A stretch of 64,000 bases of DNA from Comamonadaceae bacterium (lineage in GTDB: Bacteria > Pseudomonadota > Gammaproteobacteria > Burkholderiales > Burkholderiaceae_C), in NCBI GenBank assembly GCA_947373185.1, contig CANBWP010000002.1:124001-188000 (forward strand), in the 5' to 3' direction. This document shows, in pieces, positions 51,383-61,972 of the stretch. A model generated the notes under the pieces. The model worked only from the letters and a program-made list of their open reading frames with translations, did not search any database and had not been told where the DNA came from. The first letter of the stretch is position 1. Every line of letters begins with the position of its first letter. A program made the position numbers and the translations under genes.

Positions 51383-52498
51383 TTGAAGTCAGATCGTTCT
51401 GAGGTGATTGACCTCTTCAAGGCCAGTGCCTGCGTGTTGATTATTTGGCATCACTTGGCTTTGTATGGGCCGATGTCGGAAGTGGTGTCCGAATGGGCCG
51501 GTGGTTTTGTCAGCTTTTTGTTAGAGCATGGCTTGTTGGCGGTTCAAGTCTTTTTAGTGATTGGTGGTTACTTGAACGCCAAATCATGGACACGCGCGCT
51601 GTCTCAGGCCAAGTTTGATTTCCTCTCACGCTTGATCGGACGCTACCAACGCTTGGTCATTCCGCTGTTGGCAGCGCTTTCTTTCGCAGTCGCGGTCACC
51701 GCACTGGTGCGTCCAAATTTTGATCACACCTCATTGTCCGCGGCACCCATGCCGTTTCAGGTACTGGCGCATGTGTTCTTGCTTCAGGACGTGCTTTACC
51801 TGGAGGCGTTCTCTGCGGGTGTTTGGTATGTGGCCATCGATTTTCAGTTGTTTGCCATGGCCCTGGTTTGCGCAGGTCTGGCCCATCGCTGGCAGTCAAA
51901 AACTCAACGTGGATCTGTGATTCGCAAAGCATTGGGTTTTTGGTTGGCACTGACCATGGGCTCTATTTTTATTTGGAACCTCAATCCCTTGGGTGAAATT
52001 TGGGGCACCTACTTTTTCAGTGCCTATGGGTTGGGTTTGTGTGTGGGTGCTTGGCGATATGCAGGTCTCAAGGTCAATCACCGTCAATTGGGTTTTCTGA
52101 TTTTGATGTTGGGCGCGTTGGGGGCGGCCTACCAACCGCGCATTCGATTTGCAGTTGCCACACTGACGGCTGCCTTTCTGGCATTCTATGAGGCAACTGG
52201 TTGCCGGCCTGTACCGCTGTTGAAGCGGACTTGGATTCGAGAATTGTCCAATGCTTCTTACGCCATTTTCTTGATTCACTTTGGCGTGAGTTTGTTGGTC
52301 AGCGCCACCGTGTTCAATTTTTGGTCAGAGAATATTCCCGCCAATGCGCTGGGCATGCTGACTTCGTTCAGTTTGTCAGTTTGGTTGGGCAGACAGTTGC
52401 ACCTTCGGGTGGAAAGACAAGCGGCCAGTTGGTTGCGCTGGGCGCAGTGGACTGCAACATTTGTTGCAACCTGCACGTCCGTGATGTGGCTTAGCTGA
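51383..52498 (+). CDS. acyltransferase 3 family membrane protein
   Basis: A 371-residue membrane protein with about ten helices of the AT3 (OafA/YrhL) family. The catalytic-type His is in the first helix (LIIWHHLALYG), and VQVFLVIGGYL follows. Such enzymes move acyl groups onto periplasmic sugars or peptides; the acceptor is unknown. The start is TTG (51383), in a GAGAATTAAG context. It follows the nitronate monooxygenase gene by 30 bases, but its stop overlaps the stop of cphA1 by eight bases, so a link to cyanophycin is only positional. Confidence 0.85.
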   Translation: MKSDRSEVIDLFKASACVLIIWHHLALYGPMSEVVSEWAGGFVSFLLEHGLLAVQVFLVIGGYLNAKSWTRALSQAKFDFLSRLIGRYQRLVIPLLAALSFAVAVTALVRPNFDHTSLSAAPMPFQVLAHVFLLQDVLYLEAFSAGVWYVAIDFQLFAMALVCAGLAHRWQSKTQRGSVIRKALGFWLALTMGSIFIWNLNPLGEIWGTYFFSAYGLGLCVGAWRYAGLKVNHRQLGFLILMLGALGAAYQPRIRFAVATLTAAFLAFYEATGCRPVPLLKRTWIRELSNASYAIFLIHFGVSLLVSATVFNFWSENIPANALGMLTSFSLSVWLGRQLHLRVERQAASWLRWAQWTATFVATCTSVMWLS

Positions 52499-55076
52499 CT
52501 GTTTGTTGTTGACTGTCTTTGACCTTGCCTTGAATGTAGGCGAGGGCGGCTTCAACCTGATCAATCAAAATCAGACACAAATCACCCGGTGACAAACGCG
52601 CCAGTGCGGTGTCGATGGCATTGAACTCACCTTGGATGTCTTGGACATGGTTGGTCCGCGTGGCGCCGCTCAATCCTTCTCGCAGCAATTGAATGACCTC
52701 GCCATCGCTGCGACCCCGTTGACACGCATCTTGGTACAAGATGACTTCGTCGAAGGCTGTGCCCAAAATTTGAGTTTGATCGCGAATGTCCTGATCACGG
52801 CGATCGCCTGCGCCACTGATGACCACGACGCGTTTTTGGGCGGGCATGTTGTCAACGGCTTGGACCAAGGCTTGAATGGCGTCAGGGTTGTGACCGTAGT
52901 CGGCAATCAGCGTGGCGCCTTTGTAGTCAAAGACATTGAAGCGACCCGGGACGCCCTGAATGTCGCTGATGAAGGTGGACAGGCCTTGTGCAATGGTGTC
53001 CCATGGCACGTCGACAGCCCATGCCGCGGCCACTGCCGCCATGACGTTTTCGGTTTGAAAACCAATTTGGCCTTGACGAGTCAGGGGCACTTCGCTGAGT
53101 GAAATACGGAATGATTTCTTACCTTGCTGGGCAACGATGTGACCATTTTCGGTATAGACCACACGCTTGCCTTGTGCTCGGTGTGTGGCCAAAACGGGAT
53201 GGTGCGAGTCGAGTGCAAAAAAGGTGACGTCGCCTGGGCACATGTTGGCCATGGTGGCAACTTGGGGGTCGGCTGCATTCAGAACGGCCATGCCATTGGG
53301 TGCAACGTTCAAGACGATGACGCGTTTTAAAACGGTCAAGTCTTCCAGGGTGGTGATGTAGTTCAGACCCAGGTGGTCGCCAGAGCCCATGTTGGTCACA
53401 ATGGCCACTTGGCAACGATCGAAGGCCAAGCCTTCACGCAACAAACCGCCACGCGCAGTTTCAAACACTGCGGCATCGACATCGGGGTGCATCAACACAT
53501 TGCGCGCGCTGCGAGGACCACTGCAATCGCCATCGTCAATTTGGCGCCCATTGACATACACGCCATCGGTGTTGGTCATGCCCACGCGCAATTTGTTGGC
53601 TTTGAGCAAGTGGGCGGTTAGGCGCACTGTCGTGGTTTTGCCATTGGTGCCCGTGACGGCGATGACCGGAATGCGGCCATCTTCGCCTTTGGGGAACATG
53701 TGGTTGATGACGGCTTTGCCCACGTTGCGGCCTTTGCCAAACGAAGGGCTGATGTGCATGCGCAGACCCGGCGCGGCATTGACTTCAACGATGCCGCCGT
53801 TTTGTTCTTCCAGCGGTTTGAGCACCGATTCGCACACCACGTCGACGCCGCAAATGTCAACACCCACCATTTGGGCTGCCGCCACGGCGCGGGCCGCCAC
53901 TTCTGCATGCACGTCATCGGTCACGTCGGTGGCTGTCCCACCGGTCGACAAATTGGCGTTGTTGCGCAAAATAACGCGGCGGCCTTTTTCGGGCACAGAG
54001 TTGGGCTCGAGGTCTTGCAGCTTCAGACGACCAATGGCGATGTCGTCAAATTTGATTTTGGTCAGGGAGGTGGAATGGCCATCGCCACGGCGAGGGTCCA
54101 GATTGACTTTGTCGACCAACTGTTTGACGGTGAGCACGCCATCGCCCACGACCAAGGGCGGTTCGCGGCGTGCAGCGGCCACCAACTTGTTGCCAACGAC
54201 CAGCAAGCGATAGTCGCTGCCTGGTAAAAACTTTTCGACCAAGACTTCGCCGTAGCGCGCAGCCGTGTCGTAGGCTTGGTTGAAATTTTCACGTTCGGTG
54301 ATGTTGACCGAAACACCTTTGCCTTGGTTGCCATCCAAAGGCTTAACCACCACCGGCAGCCCAATGTTTTGGGCAATTTGCCAGGCAACTTCTACATCTT
54401 TGGCAGGACGGCCAATGGGCACAGGCACGCCAGCGGCCAACAGCAAAGATTTGGTGAGGTCTTTGTCTTGGGCAATGGCCTCTGCAATGGCACTGGTGGT
54501 GTCAGTCTCGGCGGCTTGGATACGGCGTTGTTTCGAGCCCCAGCCAAACTGCACCATGCTGCCTTCAGTGAGACGGCGGTAGGGGATGCCTTTCAACACA
54601 GCGGCATCAACAATAGAGCCTGTTGAGGGACCTAAGCGCACGTCTTCATCGAGGTCTCGCAGTTCTGCCAGCGCTTGGTTTAAGTCGAAAGCGGTGTGTG
54701 TTTGAACGGCAAGACACAGTTTTTCAGCCCAGCTCAGGGCCAGTCGCCCGACGGCCTCTTCGGTGTACTGAACCACCACTTGAAACACGCCTTCTTCTTG
54801 CGTGGCTGTGGTGCGGCTGAACGTGACTGGGCAGCCTGCTTGGTTTTGCAAGCTCAGGGTGATTTTTTCAAGGGCATGCGCCATGCTGGCGGGTTGACCG
54901 GGGCGTGTGCCTTCGAGGGGGCCGACGGCTGGGAAGATTCTGCGGAGCTGTTTCTCAAATTCGTTGCCTGGCAACATGTCCCGTTCTGGGGGTTCGCAGC
55001 TGACGATGGCCTCTATGCTGGTTTGGCGGCTCCACAGATTGGGGCCCCGCAAAGCTCGAATTCTTGAAACTTCCAT
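52491..55076 (-). CDS. cphA: cyanophycin synthetase CphA1
   Basis: Makes cyanophycin, a poly-aspartate backbone with arginine side chains, using ATP. The 861-residue enzyme has the full three-domain plan. The N-terminal domain is residues 1-160. The ATP-grasp domain (about 165-470) has VVVKPLDGNQGKGVSV and EVNAAPGLRMH. The Mur ligase-like domain has an intact P-loop GTNGKTTT (476-483), and its C-terminal lobe has ADYGHNPDAI. It lies 66 bases downstream of cphA2 on the same strand. No cyanophycinase (cphB) gene is in the window. Insoluble granules for nitrogen storage are expected from family knowledge. Confidence 0.96.
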   Translation of the reverse strand: MEVSRIRALRGPNLWSRQTSIEAIVSCEPPERDMLPGNEFEKQLRRIFPAVGPLEGTRPGQPASMAHALEKITLSLQNQAGCPVTFSRTTATQEEGVFQVVVQYTEEAVGRLALSWAEKLCLAVQTHTAFDLNQALAELRDLDEDVRLGPSTGSIVDAAVLKGIPYRRLTEGSMVQFGWGSKQRRIQAAETDTTSAIAEAIAQDKDLTKSLLLAAGVPVPIGRPAKDVEVAWQIAQNIGLPVVVKPLDGNQGKGVSVNITERENFNQAYDTAARYGEVLVEKFLPGSDYRLLVVGNKLVAAARREPPLVVGDGVLTVKQLVDKVNLDPRRGDGHSTSLTKIKFDDIAIGRLKLQDLEPNSVPEKGRRVILRNNANLSTGGTATDVTDDVHAEVAARAVAAAQMVGVDICGVDVVCESVLKPLEEQNGGIVEVNAAPGLRMHISPSFGKGRNVGKAVINHMFPKGEDGRIPVIAVTGTNGKTTTVRLTAHLLKANKLRVGMTNTDGVYVNGRQIDDGDCSGPRSARNVLMHPDVDAAVFETARGGLLREGLAFDRCQVAIVTNMGSGDHLGLNYITTLEDLTVLKRVIVLNVAPNGMAVLNAADPQVATMANMCPGDVTFFALDSHHPVLATHRAQGKRVVYTENGHIVAQQGKKSFRISLSEVPLTRQGQIGFQTENVMAAVAAAWAVDVPWDTIAQGLSTFISDIQGVPGRFNVFDYKGATLIADYGHNPDAIQALVQAVDNMPAQKRVVVISGAGDRRDQDIRDQTQILGTAFDEVILYQDACQRGRSDGEVIQLLREGLSGATRTNHVQDIQGEFNAIDTALARLSPGDLCLILIDQVEAALAYIQGKVKDSQQQTVS

Positions 55077-55142: not shown

Positions 55143-57320
55143 TCAGTGTGAGCCAGGGCTTTGGCCAAAACTTTTGATGCCAGCGCGAATGAGGTCGGTG
55201 TTGATACCCAAAGCCCATGCCGCAGCGCACGCTGCGAGCACTTCCATGCATTTGAGGTGTTGGTTCTTGAACAATTTGTCGATGGCTGGCAATTGGCGGT
55301 TCAACGCGTCAATTTCTTGATCGCCTTGTGCCAAGACCAAATGGTTCTTGCGCCAAAACACCACGCGACCATTTTCGCTGCGGTGTTTCACGATGAGAGG
55401 GTGTTCTTCAGAACTTGCGAAGTAAATGACCTCGCCGTCGCAATACTGCGCCAGATTGGCGACCGCATCGTCCTCGGCGTTGAGCACAGCCATGCCGTGA
55501 GGCAGCACCACATCCATTTGGGTGCGGATCACATTGGGCATTTGCGCGTCGCTTTGAATGTACAAGTCTTGCAGGCCTTGCGCCTTAGGCATGGTCGTGA
55601 TGATGCCAACTTGGCAGCGGTCATAGGGCAAGCCTTCGGACAACAGGTGTCTGGCCGTGGTTTCAAACACGGCGGCCTGAACCGAGCGATTGATCAAAAG
55701 ACGCTGAGCAGAATCCCACTCCATGCCGTTTTGGGTTTGCAAACAACGTTGACCGAGGAACAAACCTTTGGCAGAAGCCAGGCCTGTTTGCAAACCTTGC
55801 AAATGCAAGAGCCAAGCGATGAGGTGGCTGGTGCCGGTGGTGTGATCTTGGCCAATGACGCCCACAACAGGCACGCGGGGTTCTGAATCTTCGGCAAACA
55901 AATGGGCGGCAATGGCCTGGCCCACAGGCCGAGCAGAACCAGTGGCGGGTTTCAAATGCATGAGCAAACCAGGGCCAGCATTGACTTCGACAATGGCAGC
56001 ACCCTGCGCCTTCATGGGTTTAGAGATGTCTTGGGCCACCAAGTCAACGCCCGCAATGTCCAGACCCACAATGCGCGCAGCCAGTGCTGCCAGCTCAGCC
56101 ACATCGGGGTGCACCAGGTCGGTCACGTCCATGGCCATATTGCCTGTGCGCATGACCATCACACTGCGACCTTTATCAGGCACGCTGTCGCCCGTCAGGC
56201 CTTGGCGTTTGAGCTCAAGCACCGCGGTGGTGTGGTCTTTGAGTCGGATTGTGTCGAGTGGGAAGTCTTCTTCTTCACCGCGACGGGGGTCTGAGTTGAT
56301 TTGGCTTTCGATGAGTTGCTCAACGGTGTGAACGCCATCGCCCACAATGCTGGCCACTTCGCCTTTGTTGGCGGCAACCACTTTGCCGCCGACCACCAGC
56401 AAGCGGTGCTCGTCGCCCAAAATGTGGCGTTCGACCAGCACGTCGCTGCCTTCGGCTTCTGCCAAGTGATAGGCCGCTTCAACTTCGGCTTGGGTGCGCA
56501 ACTCGAGTGACACACCACGGGCGTGATTGCCGTCAACGGGCTTGACACACACGGGCAGACCAATGTCTTGCGCGGCTTCCCAGGCTTCGGCGGGGGAGGA
56601 CACGTTGCGGCCCTCGGGCACAGGCACACCGCAATTGGCCAACAAGCTTTTTGTGAGGTCTTTGTCTTTGGACACGCCTTCTGCAATGGCGCTGGTTTGG
56701 TCTGTCTCAGCCGTCCATATCCGGCGCTGGTTGGCGCCGTAGCCCAGCTGAACCAAGTTGCCATCGTTCAGGCGAATGGCTGGGATGTTGCGCTCGGCAG
56801 CCGCATCGACGATGCAAGCGGTGCTGGGGCCAATGCACAGGCGGTCCACCATTTGGGTGAGGTCGGCAATGACTTGTTTGACGGGGAAAGGTCGGTTTTC
56901 GATGGCAGCCATGACCAAGTCACGGGCGGCTTGGAGGGCGGCACGGCTGACCGTCTCGTTGCGTGTCCGAATGACCACCTTGTAAATGCCGCGGGGGCCA
57001 GCTTCGCGGGCCTTGCCAAAACCAGTTTGCATGCCAGCACGGTTTTGCAATTCCAAGGCCACGTGTTCCATGATGTGACCGGGCCAAGTGCCGTCGGCCA
57101 AGCGTTTTAGAAAACCGCCGCGTTCACCCACGCTGCAGCGATGTTCGATGAGGCCCGGCAGCATCTCTTGCAGGCGTTCGTTGAAACCGGGCAGGGTGTT
57201 GGAGGGGCAGTCTTCTAAGTCGCCGATGTCTATCCAAGCTTCCAAGACAGGGCGGTAAGTCCAGATGTTGGGACCCTTTAAGTGGGTCATCCGGATAAAT
57301 TTGATTTCTTTAGAACTCAT
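55143..57320 (-). CDS. cphA2: CphA2-type cyanophycin synthetase with degenerate Mur domain
   Basis: A 725-residue paralog of CphA1, first in the minus-strand pair. N-terminal domain (to about 165) and ATP-grasp domain (VCVKPVDGNHARGVSL, EVNAGPGLLMH) are intact. In the Mur-like domain the P-loop is lost (GVIGQDHTTGTS where CphA1 has GTNGKTTT), and the C-terminal lobe of about 135 residues is missing. This matches CphA2 (CphA' in betaproteobacteria); cyanobacterial CphA2 polymerises beta-Asp-Arg dipeptides with only one ATP site. Start ATG 57320 (MSSKEIKF) is chosen; 57290 is possible. The 814-residue track ORF is over-extended. Confidence 0.93.
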   Translation of the reverse strand: MSSKEIKFIRMTHLKGPNIWTYRPVLEAWIDIGDLEDCPSNTLPGFNERLQEMLPGLIEHRCSVGERGGFLKRLADGTWPGHIMEHVALELQNRAGMQTGFGKAREAGPRGIYKVVIRTRNETVSRAALQAARDLVMAAIENRPFPVKQVIADLTQMVDRLCIGPSTACIVDAAAERNIPAIRLNDGNLVQLGYGANQRRIWTAETDQTSAIAEGVSKDKDLTKSLLANCGVPVPEGRNVSSPAEAWEAAQDIGLPVCVKPVDGNHARGVSLELRTQAEVEAAYHLAEAEGSDVLVERHILGDEHRLLVVGGKVVAANKGEVASIVGDGVHTVEQLIESQINSDPRRGEEEDFPLDTIRLKDHTTAVLELKRQGLTGDSVPDKGRSVMVMRTGNMAMDVTDLVHPDVAELAALAARIVGLDIAGVDLVAQDISKPMKAQGAAIVEVNAGPGLLMHLKPATGSARPVGQAIAAHLFAEDSEPRVPVVGVIGQDHTTGTSHLIAWLLHLQGLQTGLASAKGLFLGQRCLQTQNGMEWDSAQRLLINRSVQAAVFETTARHLLSEGLPYDRCQVGIITTMPKAQGLQDLYIQSDAQMPNVIRTQMDVVLPHGMAVLNAEDDAVANLAQYCDGEVIYFASSEEHPLIVKHRSENGRVVFWRKNHLVLAQGDQEIDALNRQLPAIDKLFKNQHLKCMEVLAACAAAWALGINTDLIRAGIKSFGQSPGSH

Positions 57321-57385
57321 TTTCGTGCTTTTCACAATTCTGAGCGAAGGCACGGGGCGATTCGTGTCCGGAGATACAATGACCG

Positions 57386-57403
57386 GCCAGTTGCAGCACT
57401 GGC
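57386..57403. promoter_or_regulatory. GCCAGT-tgcagc-ACTGGC inverted repeat between cphA2 and the ABC gene
   Basis: A 6-base-arm inverted repeat in the 186-base divergent gap, 66 bases from the cphA2 start. A TACAAT lies just before it on the plus strand. It is a candidate operator shared by both transcripts. No clear paired -35/-10 promoter could be assigned on either strand. Confidence 0.4.
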
Positions 57404-57506
57404 AATGATCGTCTGATAAACAAGGTGCATGGGCTGTGTCCTGGCCGCTTCTTTTGCTGTTTTTGTTTGCCGCCAACACATGTTGACTCTTGCTGTTTGA
57501 ATACTT

Positions 57507-59843
57507 ATGAACGCCAAAACCCATCCTCCCATCGATTTGCTGGGATTGCCTTTTTTCTGGCAGAAGGGCGTGTTGTCTCAAGTTCACCTTGGTGAAAACG
57601 TCCTAGCCTGGCTGGAGGTTGACCTCAATGGTGAATTAAGTTTCAAAAAAACCCTTGTTATTTTGACCGATCAAAGGGTCATCTCTACCGACGAGGGTCA
57701 AAATAGTTGGAATATTTGGCCCGTCAGCCCTGATTTGTCCTTGCGGGTGACAGACCACGCAGGGGTGGGCACCTTGGCATTGCATCAGGGCGGTCTGCGT
57801 TTAGCCGCTTGGCGCTTCACCTTGGGCCTCGAAGCGGCGGTTCTTCGCTGGAAGCTACGCTTTGAAAATCAGTTGTCTGGCGGGGCTGCCAAGTCGACGT
57901 TTCTGGGGCAGTCTTTTCAAGCTCAAGCCGGCGCTGATGTCACTTGGACAGAGCCTGGCGTGGGTCAGATGCGCCACGTTTTATGTCCGGTCTGCCAAAA
58001 CGTGATTGCCGCCGCCGATGAAGAGTGTGCGGTTTGCTTAGAAAAAGAACAGACACCGCCTTCGAGTTGGACCCTCTTCAAATTGTGGCGCTTTGCCCGA
58101 CCTTATCAGTGGCAATTGTTGATGGGCTTTGTCTTGACCTTGGCCTCCACAGCGGCCACCTTGGTGCCGCCTTACCTGACCATGCCCTTGATGGACGATG
58201 TGTTGATTCCGTACCAAAACGGCAAGCCGATTGATCCGGTCACGGTTTCTTGGTACTTGCTGGGTTTACTGGGTTCGGCTTTGGTCGCCTGGAGTTTGGG
58301 TTGGATCAAAACTTATATCTTGGCGCTGGTGTCCGAGCGCATTGGTGCTGATTTGCGAACCACCACTTACCAGCATTTGCTGAAGCTCTCCTTGGAGTAT
58401 TTTGGCGGGCGCAGAACGGGCGATTTGATTGCCCGCATTGGCAGCGAGACCGATCGCATCAATGTGTTTTTGTCGCTGCACTTGCTCGACTTTGCCACCG
58501 ATGTGCTGATGATCATGATGACCGCGATCATCTTGTTTTCCATCAACCCCACCTTGGCCTTGGTCACCTTGTTGCCCTTGCCCTTCATCGGTTGGTTGAT
58601 TCATGTGGTGCGTGAAAAACTGCGCACAGGATTTGAAAAAATTGACCGTGTCTGGTCTGAAGTGACCAATGTCTTGGCCGACACCATTCCAGGCATTCGG
58701 GTGGTCAAAGCTTTTGCTCAAGAAGAGCGCGAAGCGCAACGTTTTATCGAGGCCAACAAGCACAACCTGGCCGTCAACGATCGCTTGAACCGGGTCTGGT
58801 CGGTGTTCTCGCCGACGGTGACGCTGATGACCGAAGTGGGCTTGTTGGTGGTGTGGGGTTTTGGCATTTGGTTGGTTTCCAAGAACCAAATCACGGTCGG
58901 TGTGCTTACCGCTTTTTTGGCCTACATCGGCCGTTTCTATACACGCCTTGATTCGATGAGCCGCATTGTTTCGACCACCCAAAAAGCGGCATCGGGTGCC
59001 AAGCGAATTTTTGAAATCTTGGACCATGTCTCTAGCGTGCCAGAACCTGCACATCCCGTGGCCCTCTCCAATGTGACAGGCCGCATTACCTTGAGCGATG
59101 CCAGCTTTCGATATGGCAACCGTGCGGTCATCAAGCAATTGAACTTGGACATTCAACCTGGCGAGATGATCGGCCTGGTCGGCCACAGCGGCTCGGGTAA
59201 AAGTACCTTGGTCAATTTGATGTGCCGTTTCTACGATTTGTCAGAGGGCAGCATTGCCTTGGATGGTGTCGACATCAAACAGCTCAAGGTGGCCGACTAC
59301 AGAAGACACATTGGTCTGGTCTTGCAAGAACCCTTCTTGTTCTTTGGCACCATCGCCGACAACATCGCCTATGGCCTGCCCGACGCTTCACGCGAAGACA
59401 TTGTGGCGGCAGCCCGTGCGGCGCACGCGCATGAGTTCATCTTGCGCATGCCCCAAGGCTATGACTCCTTGGTGGGTGAGCGGGGCCAAGGCTTGTCGGG
59501 CGGCGAGCGTCAGCGCATTTCGATTGCGCGCGCCTTGTTGATCAATCCGCGCATTTTGATTCTGGACGAAGCCACTTCTGCGGTGGACACAGAAACAGAA
59601 AAGGAAATTCAAAATGCCTTGGACAATTTGGTTCGAGGCAGAACCACCATTGCCATTGCGCACCGCTTGTCAACGCTTCGCAAAGCCGATCGCTTGGTGG
59701 TCATGGACAAGGGCCTGATTGTGGAAGAGGGTACGCATGACGTGCTGATCGAACGCAAAGGCGCTTACTGGCGTTTGTACGAAGCACAACAAAGACAGGC
59801 TGAATCTGAAGGTGCTGTTTTGAGAGAGTCGAGCGCATCATGA
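57507..59843 (+). CDS. cyanophycin-associated ABC transporter (fused permease-ATPase)
   Basis: A 778-residue half-transporter. Residues 1-155 form a soluble beta-rich region with VILTDQRVIS, reminiscent of bacterial PH-like domains. C160-x2-C163-x10-C174-x2-C177 follows, a zinc-ribbon-like knuckle. Six membrane helices of exporter type (about 195-490) come next. The ATPase is complete: Walker A GHSGSGKST, Q-loop VLQEP, signature LSGGERQR, Walker B ILILDEATSAVD and H-loop IAHRLST. From memory, NCBI names this family a cyanophycin metabolism-associated ABC transporter. It is divergent from cphA2-cphA1 and overlaps the DUF1854 gene (ATGA). Substrate and direction are unknown; export or signalling of cyanophycin fragments is speculation. 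Confidence 0.88.
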   Translation: MNAKTHPPIDLLGLPFFWQKGVLSQVHLGENVLAWLEVDLNGELSFKKTLVILTDQRVISTDEGQNSWNIWPVSPDLSLRVTDHAGVGTLALHQGGLRLAAWRFTLGLEAAVLRWKLRFENQLSGGAAKSTFLGQSFQAQAGADVTWTEPGVGQMRHVLCPVCQNVIAAADEECAVCLEKEQTPPSSWTLFKLWRFARPYQWQLLMGFVLTLASTAATLVPPYLTMPLMDDVLIPYQNGKPIDPVTVSWYLLGLLGSALVAWSLGWIKTYILALVSERIGADLRTTTYQHLLKLSLEYFGGRRTGDLIARIGSETDRINVFLSLHLLDFATDVLMIMMTAIILFSINPTLALVTLLPLPFIGWLIHVVREKLRTGFEKIDRVWSEVTNVLADTIPGIRVVKAFAQEEREAQRFIEANKHNLAVNDRLNRVWSVFSPTVTLMTEVGLLVVWGFGIWLVSKNQITVGVLTAFLAYIGRFYTRLDSMSRIVSTTQKAASGAKRIFEILDHVSSVPEPAHPVALSNVTGRITLSDASFRYGNRAVIKQLNLDIQPGEMIGLVGHSGSGKSTLVNLMCRFYDLSEGSIALDGVDIKQLKVADYRRHIGLVLQEPFLFFGTIADNIAYGLPDASREDIVAAARAAHAHEFILRMPQGYDSLVGERGQGLSGGERQRISIARALLINPRILILDEATSAVDTETEKEIQNALDNLVRGRTTIAIAHRLSTLRKADRLVVMDKGLIVEEGTHDVLIERKGAYWRLYEAQQRQAESEGAVLRESSAS

Positions 59844-60316
59844 GCACAGATTGGATGAACATTCAATTCGGTCAAGGCCCTTCGGGTCGTTGGTACTTTG
59901 TCAGCGTCGATGGCACGCAGCACGACAATGTCACCGCGGTTCGCTCCTTTCCGGTCGCCTCACCCGATGAAGGCATTGCGCTGGTCGATGTCGACGGCAA
60001 AGAACTCTTGTGGATTGCGCACTTGAACCAAATTGCTGAACCTGCACGCAGCCAAATTTTGACCGCCATCACGCAGCGTGAATTCATGCCGCGAATTTTG
60101 AAATTACATGGGGTCAGCAGTTTTGTCACGCCCAGCACTTGGGACATTGACACCGACCGGGGCCGCACCAGTTTATTGCTCAAGGGCGAGGAAGACATTC
60201 GGCGCTTGTCAGGCACTGTGTTGCTGGTGACCGATGGTCACGGCGTGCAGTTTTTGATTCGCGATCTGGCACAGATGGATCGCCACTCTCGCAAACTGCT
60301 CGACCGTTTCTTATAA
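59840..60316 (+). CDS. DUF1854 family protein, cyanophycin-associated
   Basis: A 158-residue soluble protein of the DUF1854 family, which, from memory, is recorded mainly beside cyanophycin synthetase genes. The sequence is mixed alpha/beta with no signal or membrane segment. Recognisable parts are VRSFPVASPDEGIALVDVDG, ITQREFMPRI and TSTWD-like WDIDTDRGRT, with a C-terminal RLSGTVLLVTDGHGVQFLIRD. It overlaps the ABC gene start-to-stop (ATGA), so the pair is translationally coupled and its product probably assists that transporter. Its stop overlaps that of convergent eptA by six bases. Biochemical role unknown. Confidence 0.85.
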   Translation: MSTDWMNIQFGQGPSGRWYFVSVDGTQHDNVTAVRSFPVASPDEGIALVDVDGKELLWIAHLNQIAEPARSQILTAITQREFMPRILKLHGVSSFVTPSTWDIDTDRGRTSLLLKGEEDIRRLSGTVLLVTDGHGVQFLIRDLAQMDRHSRKLLDRFL

Positions 60317-61972
60317 CTTGCTGCGGCAGTCCGCATGCACATCCAGCTTGGGCTGATACACCGAGGTGCTGACATTCAGCAAGCCCAGGACCGAGTGAAA
60401 ATAGTTGTCGTGAGTGAGGGCGGCATCGGCTTTGTTTTTCAGGCAAGTGCGAGACAGGCCTGATTGCTTTTCAAATCGAGGTGACCACCAGGTGATCCAT
60501 GGCACCCGTTTTTGAACATCAGGTGCTACCCGGTAGGGCAAGCCGTGCAAATACAAATTGTTTTCGCCCAAAGACTCGCCATGGTCAGACACATAGAGCA
60601 AAGCCGGCGCAGCTTGCGCTTCTGATTTTTTCAGCCATTGAATGGCTTGGCCCAAAAAGTGGTCGGTGTAGAGGATGGTGTTGTCAAACGAATTGACCAC
60701 TTGCTCGCGCGAGCACTCTTGCAAGGCATTGCTGGTGCATTCTGGTTTGAATTTTTTGAAAGTGTCGGGCACACGTTTGTAGTAGGCCGGGCCATGACTG
60801 CCCATCTGGTGCATCACCACCACCACGCCTTTGGCGCGTTGATCGGCAGGGAGCGCTTGAATGCGCTCATCCAATTGTTGCAACATGATTTCGTCAAAAC
60901 ACTCGCCGTCTTGGCACAAGGTGGGGTGCTTGAGCTCCTTGGTCAGGGCTTGAGGCACGCGCTCGCACACGCCTTTGCAACCCGATTGATTGTCGATCCA
61001 CAGCACTGCCAGGCCTGCGTGGTGCAGGACATCAATCAGACTTTCGAAGTTGTTTTTGCGGGCTTCAAATTCTTCTTTGCCCAAATGCGAAAACATGCAG
61101 GGCACCGAGGTGGCTGTGCTGGTGCCGCAAGACATCACGCCTTTGAGGCTGATCACATTTTCTTGGGCCAACGCAGGGGTGGTGTTGCGCTCGTAGCCGT
61201 TGATGCCAAAGTTGCCCATGCGTGCGGTTTCACCCAAAACCAACAAAAGCAGAGGCGGTTTCTCTGTGGCTTTCAGGGCGCCCGTGTGGGCATCTTCACC
61301 GACCGGCAGCAAGAGCTTGTTGTCACGTTGAAAGGGCTTGGCCGCCACCATGCCGATGGCATAAAAGCTGTTGAGGGGGTTGACCAAATAGCGCAGTTGG
61401 GTGTGATTGCGCATGATCGAGGAGAAGTCTTGAAACACTGCGAGCAAAGCCGCCACGATGACGACCATCGAGACCACCGCCATGCTGGCATTTCGAAGGG
61501 CTTGTTGACCCAGTCGAAAAGTTTGAAGCGGCGTTTTCCAAAGCACCCAGCAAGGCAAGATGCCCAACAACAGCAGGCTGATGAGCATGCGCCAATTCAA
61601 CAAGTCCAAGGCTTCTTTCGTATCGGTCTGAATCACGTTGGTGATCATGGTGCTGTCGATGACGATGCCGTAACTCATCATGAAATAAGCGCCACTGGCG
61701 GCACTCAGAAAGAAAACAGTCAGCACAGGTTTGAGCCATGCGCGCCAGTTGAAAAAACTCAAAATGGCCGTGAGGACAGCGGTGATGATGACACCAAAGC
61801 CCAGTGCAAAGGCCAAGCCACGCATGCCGTTGACTTCGGGCAATTGGTGAATTTGCAGCCAGAGTGCAATGTTGCCGACGCTGGCCAACCACACACTGCT
61901 GAGCAAGGCCACCCAATTGGGATGCCATGCTTGGCGAGAGGACGCAGATGAACGTTGATTTTTTGAAGTCAT
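60311..61972 (-). CDS. eptA: lipid A phosphoethanolamine transferase (EptA family)
   Basis: Inner-membrane enzyme of the sulfatase/alkaline phosphatase superfamily that adds phosphoethanolamine to lipid A, lowering its negative charge. 553 residues: five N-terminal helices (about 20-180), then a periplasmic catalytic domain. Active-site features: E248 (GETAR), T286 in CGTSTATSVPCMF as acceptor Thr, H393 (GSHGPAYY), D463-H464 (SDHGESLGE) and H476 (YLHGLPY). Several Cys pairs suggest disulfides. Single gene; no two-component regulator adjacent. Distinguishing EptA from EptB-like specificities is not possible here. Confidence 0.92.
   Translation of the reverse strand: MTSKNQRSSASSRQAWHPNWVALLSSVWLASVGNIALWLQIHQLPEVNGMRGLAFALGFGVIITAVLTAILSFFNWRAWLKPVLTVFFLSAASGAYFMMSYGIVIDSTMITNVIQTDTKEALDLLNWRMLISLLLLGILPCWVLWKTPLQTFRLGQQALRNASMAVVSMVVIVAALLAVFQDFSSIMRNHTQLRYLVNPLNSFYAIGMVAAKPFQRDNKLLLPVGEDAHTGALKATEKPPLLLLVLGETARMGNFGINGYERNTTPALAQENVISLKGVMSCGTSTATSVPCMFSHLGKEEFEARKNNFESLIDVLHHAGLAVLWIDNQSGCKGVCERVPQALTKELKHPTLCQDGECFDEIMLQQLDERIQALPADQRAKGVVVVMHQMGSHGPAYYKRVPDTFKKFKPECTSNALQECSREQVVNSFDNTILYTDHFLGQAIQWLKKSEAQAAPALLYVSDHGESLGENNLYLHGLPYRVAPDVQKRVPWITWWSPRFEKQSGLSRTCLKNKADAALTHDNYFHSVLGLLNVSTSVYQPKLDVHADCRSKL

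Follow-up and report, generated by a model that had tools for sequence, protein, structure and literature searches.

A four-gene locus with two cphA homologues

The window analysed here is a stretch of 64,000 nucleotides from a Comamonadaceae bacterium (contig CANBWP010000002.1, positions 124,001 to 188,000). It encodes an ABC half-transporter and a DUF1854 protein, whose genes overlap by ATGA at the junction catcATGAgcac and run divergently from two genes for homologues of the cyanophycin synthetase CphA (Table 1). The sequence-only reading had described this layout, and the open reading frames and the sequence bear out the two genes, their overlap and their divergence from both cphA homologues. 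Its label "cphA2" for the truncated homologue had to be dropped: the protein keeps the N-domain active site and falls outside the CphA2 definition, and we call it CphA' here. The four genes together are referred to as the quartet.

The ABC protein belongs to family NF052233 (CphA_assoc_ABC; 1366 bits, cut-off 880), and the DUF1854 protein to NF052234 (CphA_assoc_prot; 203.8 bits, cut-off 150) and PF08909 (151.8 bits, cut-off 26.8). NCBIfam names both families "cyanophycin metabolism-associated", the former as an ABC transporter and the latter as a DUF1854 family protein. An EptA-like gene lies convergent with the DUF1854 gene, the two stop codons overlapping by 6 bases; it is not kept next to the quartet at other loci.

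Table 1. Features of the locus, in positions of the window
Feature	Position	Strand	Description and basis
cphA	52491..55076	-	861 aa CphA homologue; Asp-binding (G) and Mur-ligase (M) sites intact
cphA'	55143..57320	-	725 aa CphA homologue; N-domain peptidase site intact
Divergent intergenic/promoter region, cphA' vs ABC gene	57321..57506		Sequence
ABC half-transporter gene	57507..59843	+	778 aa ORF; exporter type, family NF052233
PH-like domain of ABC protein	57600..57893	+	Residues 32-129; AlphaFold model and Foldseek
CxxC...CxxC motif of ABC protein	57984..58037	+	Residues 160-177; probable zinc ribbon
DUF1854 gene (PF08909 / NF052234)	59840..60316	+	158 aa ORF; profile scores
Phosphoethanolamine-lipid A transferase (EptA-like) gene	60311..61972	-	

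The ABC-DUF1854 pair co-occurs with CphA

We found the quartet at 36 Burkholderiales loci and at the 80 top-ranked loci from a scan of the GTDB genome collection, a recurrence that sets it apart from a chance arrangement. The scan was queried with the ABC transmembrane region, since DUF1854 offers no sufficiently conserved stretch, and some loci are MAG contigs. In most cases cphA-cphA' stands divergent from ABC-DUF1854, and sometimes all four genes point in the same direction. Three Cupriavidus loci carry the quartet (L100, L101 and L128). Loci with a quartet gene missing lie at contig ends, with one exception: on a 4462-base contig of a Dechloromonas MAG (L096), 1.5 kb upstream of the ABC gene is without CphA', making this the sole locus among the best 80 with no visible CphA neighbour.

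Across 48 loci with 10-kb flanks, no conserved partner was found beyond the quartet itself. Genuine neighbouring genes, dnaK and dnaJ for example, turn up at no more than 8 of the 48, and the remaining recurrent open reading frames appear to be the quartet genes read in another frame or on the opposite strand. Nitrogen control through the divergent region was considered and rejected, as neither sigma-54 motifs nor simple NAC- or LysR-like motifs were meaningfully enriched across 103 homologous regions. Spread by plasmids was likewise rejected, with 0 DUF1854 matches in 72,556 plasmid records.

DUF1854 (NF052234) is present in 68 of 200 Burkholderiales genomes, all 68 of which also encode CphA (Fisher p=3e-42), and among 219 genomes sampled across the phylum CphA accompanies it in 13 of 13 cases (Fisher p=2e-18), with some genomes falling in both samples and with p values that ignore kinship among genomes that are not independent. 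Over the 419 genome searches in these two overlapping samples, we saw no case of DUF1854 without CphA. Eleven Burkholderiales genomes have CphA and no DUF1854: six encode a single-type, high-scoring CphA1 together with a cyanophycinase (G041, G086, G113, G127, G165, G199), one carries an ABC gene truncated where its contig stops (G122), one is 79% complete (G136), and three have weak CphA matches (G010, G016, G053). NF052233 was found in 0 of 9 genomes with a single-type, high-scoring CphA1, three of the nine lying outside Burkholderiales. Within each of three genera (g9, g19 and g33) some genomes have both CphA and the pair and others have neither, which points to several independent gains or losses. 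Two genomes retain both pairs at distant sites (G146, G183), and in two more the pairs lie about 8-15 kb apart (G034, G115).

That the genes are mere neighbours, brought together by chance or by common regulation and not coupled in function, is extremely improbable given the retention of both pairs when unlinked, the strict presence or absence across genera and the want of any other conserved neighbour. The same observations, together with DUF1854 never occurring without CphA, uphold the functional link with CphA drawn by the sequence-only reading, which had named a pair equally common in genomes without cphA as the result that would tell against it; the 419 genome searches gave the opposite picture.

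The two CphA paralogues divide the active sites between them

Residues tested in PMC9262961 and PMC9427784 were mapped onto SuCphA1 for 108 CphA' and 101 CphA sequences. CphA' keeps the N-domain peptidase site (H57, C59, H79, E82, H83) in 108 of 108. In its G domain the S396 loop is absent from all 108, R323 has become G in 107 and R458 has become L in 104; in its M domain K499 is kept in 29 of 108 and the Mur lid residues are absent in about 100, with about 8 of the 108, all full-length, retaining lid-like sequence. CphA has lost C59 in 101 of 101 and H83 in nearly all, and keeps R309, R323, N394, S396, R458, K499, D585 and H586 in every sequence. Judged by these residues, the two proteins are complementary: the Cx19HxxEH motif, the Asp site and the Mur-ligase site, which CphA1 holds in a single chain, are split between CphA' (N) and CphA (G and M). 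The N motif is also missing from 17% of CphA1 sequences (PMC9262961). CphA and CphA' form sister clades in the tree, indicating one duplication followed by complementary loss. CphA' has lost the P-loop and the lid as CphA2 has, but all 108 sequences keep the N motif that CphA2 by definition lacks (PMC9262961), so by its residues CphA' is not a CphA2.

The N domain of SuCphA1 is a proven primer-making endo-cyanophycinase that cuts cyanophycin to units of about four dipeptides, and SuCphA1 heterodimers whose functional N site is carried by the partner protomer are active when primer is supplied (PMC9262961). By analogy, we infer that CphA would need CphA' for its primers. The complementary loss of sites thus makes a clear biochemical prediction, namely that primer-free activity of CphA requires CphA'.

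CphA itself also carries changes at H267, at E215 and in the Mur lid. Position 267 is Q in 100 of 101 sequences in place of H267, which is essential in SuCphA1, and backbone synthesis may be altered as a result, a point against the reading favoured below. E215, which in TeCphA1 contacts the C-terminal Arg side chain (PMC9427784), is S, A or T in nearly all, and the lid DDDKRGR reads D-A/Q-C-Q-R-G-R, with D803 replaced by C (88 of 99 sequences) or A (11 of 99). These three changes would suit a product that is not Asp-Arg cyanophycin but a different isopeptide polymer or peptide, which the ABC protein would export as in peptide natural-product pathways. Yet the Asp-binding residues R323, N394, S396 and R458 are fully retained, some single-type CphA1 proteins (L165, L070) likewise differ at E215 and at the acidic lid positions, and sequence is an unsafe guide to side-chain specificity.

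Two further CphA loci were observed. At L164 (G312:C9, 1-11782), from a genome of another class, ABC-DUF1854 adjoins one CphA gene only, which is unsplit; its protein keeps the N, G and M residues, has Q267 and branches near the base of the CphA' clade. This locus, from a MAG with 8% contamination and on a contig that ends within the gene, suggests that the ABC pair can do without the CphA split, which counts against the reading favoured below. One quartet-bearing genome has a second, separate locus (L069; G056:C1:5334000-5350000) where two full-length CphA genes, each encoding Q267, stand in divergent orientation next to a cyanophycinase and without ABC-DUF1854; one of the two CphA proteins is without the N-domain site and in the other that site is partly changed.

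The ABC half-transporter and the DUF1854 protein

From its N terminus, the ABC protein consists of a PH-like domain, a Zn-ribbon-like CxxC..CxxC motif, a six-helix transmembrane domain and a nucleotide-binding domain. It has the ABC_membrane and ABC_tran domains and the complete ATPase motifs of a type IV ABC exporter (Walker A GHSGSGKST, Q-loop LQEPFLF, signature LSGGERQ, Walker B LILDEATS, H-loop AHRLS), and its next-best NCBIfam match after NF052233 is the lipid flippase MsbA. ABC proteins with an exporter fold can also act as importers or flippases, which together with the MsbA match weighs against export. In the AlphaFold model the PH-like domain (mean pLDDT 82.8, about 95-97 across most of the domain) folds as seven strands and a C-terminal helix, and Foldseek places PH domains, the bacterial DUF1696 structure 3dcx among them, at the top of its matches (E 2e-3, probability 1.00). 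The CxxC..CxxC motif, between this domain and the first transmembrane helix, is probably a zinc ribbon; it occurs in 29 of 35 ABC homologues, and model confidence around it is low.

Median identity over all pairs between genomes reaches 80% in the nucleotide-binding domain of the ABC protein and 76% in its transmembrane domain, and is 38% in its PH-like domain; CphA stands at 66%, CphA' at 57% and DUF1854 at 51%. A transmembrane domain more conserved than CphA and CphA' is what a fixed substrate would lead one to expect.

The PH-like domain, and an accessory DUF1854 protein without a confident structural match, would also suit a pair that does not export the polymer: a platform or sensor in the membrane to which the synthetase is anchored or by which it is regulated, or a transporter that keeps synthesis in balance by moving arginine or some other metabolite. 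The cluster holds no outer-membrane or periplasmic partner, which agrees with such a role and counts against export. However, the ATPase motifs are intact, the transmembrane domain is the most constrained part after the nucleotide-binding domain, far above the PH-like domain, and classical CphA systems manage without ABC-DUF1854. We regard this alternative as unlikely.

The model of the DUF1854 protein, which is of high confidence (pLDDT 90.8), shows mixed strands and two helices and has no match in the PDB at E<=1e-3. The idea that this protein duplicates the PH-like domain of the ABC protein was rejected (0.4% probability by profile comparison), as were apparent natural ABC-DUF1854 fusions, the long open frames (921 aa in G187) being other-frame readings. 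No mention of DUF1854 was found in the literature searched. In Sulfolobus acidocaldarius, used as an archaeal control genome, PF08909 scored above cut-off and the CphA search was empty.

Quartet genomes mostly lack cyanophycinase

A PF03575 search for peptidase family S51, to which the known cyanophycinases CphB, CphE and CphI belong, gave no match in the window genome, which is 99.9% complete. The genome also has no IaaA-type Asparaginase_2 protein (PF01112) and no IadA above cut-off (TIGR01975, best 22.5 bits against 331), so that, leaving CphZ-type enzymes aside, both the cyanophycinase and the isoaspartyl dipeptidase of a storage-and-use pathway are missing. S51 proteins of any kind are absent from 58 of the 68 quartet genomes, this one included. 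In the order sample, a TIGR02069 cyanophycinase scores above cut-off in 4 of 68 quartet genomes vs 6 of 6 genomes with single-type CphA1 (p=1e-6). Betaproteobacterial genomes without cyanophycinase were noted in 2016 (PMC5178258). Ordinary cyanophycin storage with an added transporter, as the sequence-only reading had framed the locus, does not fit: classical genomes with CphA1 and cyanophycinase are without the pair, and quartets mostly lack cyanophycinase and have complementary CphA sites.

A passage of a review citing Adames 2013 (PMC11362209) states that wild-type R. eutropha, although it has two synthetase homologues, was not observed to make cyanophycin. That statement, and the missing S51, Asparaginase_2 and IadA proteins of the window genome, add to the case for a non-Asp-Arg product; weighed with the retained Asp-binding residues, we consider that alternative possible but doubtful. 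Cyanophycin has been reported in Bordetella species, according to the review PMC8560796, and Bordetella may carry the quartet module, a point against export.

Long S51 proteins resembling secreted CphE occur in a few quartet genomes (G021, G068, G102). They would suit a transporter that feeds CphA and CphA' with dipeptides or cyanophycin oligomers taken up from outside the cell. Most quartet genomes have no S51 enzyme, however, CphA' has lost the residues that bind incoming Asp, and the cluster has no binding-protein gene, and import is therefore very improbable. Both import and a regulatory or anchoring role are weaker readings than export or a non-Asp-Arg product.

A possible export module for a cyanophycin-family product

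We favour, at somewhat less than an even chance, a module whose product, a polymer or oligomer of the cyanophycin family, leaves the cytoplasm through the ABC transporter acting with DUF1854. The four genes would form one module, in which CphA and CphA', derived by duplication of one synthetase, probably act in a mixed complex. CphA would extend the Asp backbone and add the side-chain amino acid. CphA', with the N-domain zinc endopeptidase as its one surviving catalytic centre, would cut the chain to short primers or oligomers and could thereby supply transportable pieces. The exporter-type ABC protein would work as a homodimer, with its PH-like domain on the cytoplasmic side and DUF1854 as its partner, and would carry out of the cytoplasm either the polymer or, more likely, short oligomers from CphA'. 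The complex, the direction of transport, the cargo and the part given to DUF1854 are what we infer from the genes.

As the pump and its helper always accompany the two-part synthetase and the degrading enzyme is usually missing, the product probably leaves the cell interior rather than simply being stored, in many freshwater and soil betaproteobacteria. More tentatively still, the locus may represent a widespread betaproteobacterial system in which a two-subunit synthetase, one subunit polymerising and one cutting, feeds an ABC exporter with DUF1854 to give a secreted or surface cyanophycin-family product. If true, cyanophycin-type chemistry has an extracellular purpose beyond nitrogen storage. 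This would explain together the adjacent cphA pairs of betaproteobacteria, the missing cyanophycinase and the Ralstonia eutropha observation. It would also give the DUF1854 and ABC families a testable role, and nitrogen-storage annotations based on cphA in abundant freshwater, soil and wastewater bacteria would be wrong or incomplete.

Comparison with known systems

The gene association is not new: it is catalogued by NCBIfam and was noted in part in PMC10687191, while its role is undescribed. The window proteins exceed both curated cut-offs and the association is named identically, but NF052233 and NF052234 are annotation models without a described function, which agrees with the undescribed step that the sequence-only reading had seen in the pair; here the partner is a split CphA'/CphA without cyanophycinase. 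The Group 1 cphA cluster from activated sludge (PMC10687191, 2023) has two cphA copies and an ABC gene and lacks cphB, as does the window locus. That study proposed a composite transposon with flanking insertion sequences, whereas here the flanks vary and DUF1854 is absent from the 72,556 plasmid records. Our analysis adds DUF1854, the active sites and the genome-wide co-occurrence.

The ABC protein shares the fold, half-transporter layout and ATPase motifs of MsbA and other type IV (B-type) exporters, and differs from them in its extra PH-like domain and zinc ribbon, its separate family and its obligate partner genes. Classical CphA1 with CphB has N, G and M domains homologous to those of CphA and CphA'; unlike the quartet, it holds all sites in one polypeptide, is accompanied by cyanophycinase in the order sample and is without ABC-DUF1854. 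Cyanobacterial CphA2, whose defining activity is the polymerisation of beta-Asp-Arg dipeptides, has lost the Mur-ligase lid and P-loop, as has CphA'; it lacks the Cx19HxxEH N motif, whereas CphA' has lost the Asp-binding residues of the G domain and retains that motif throughout.
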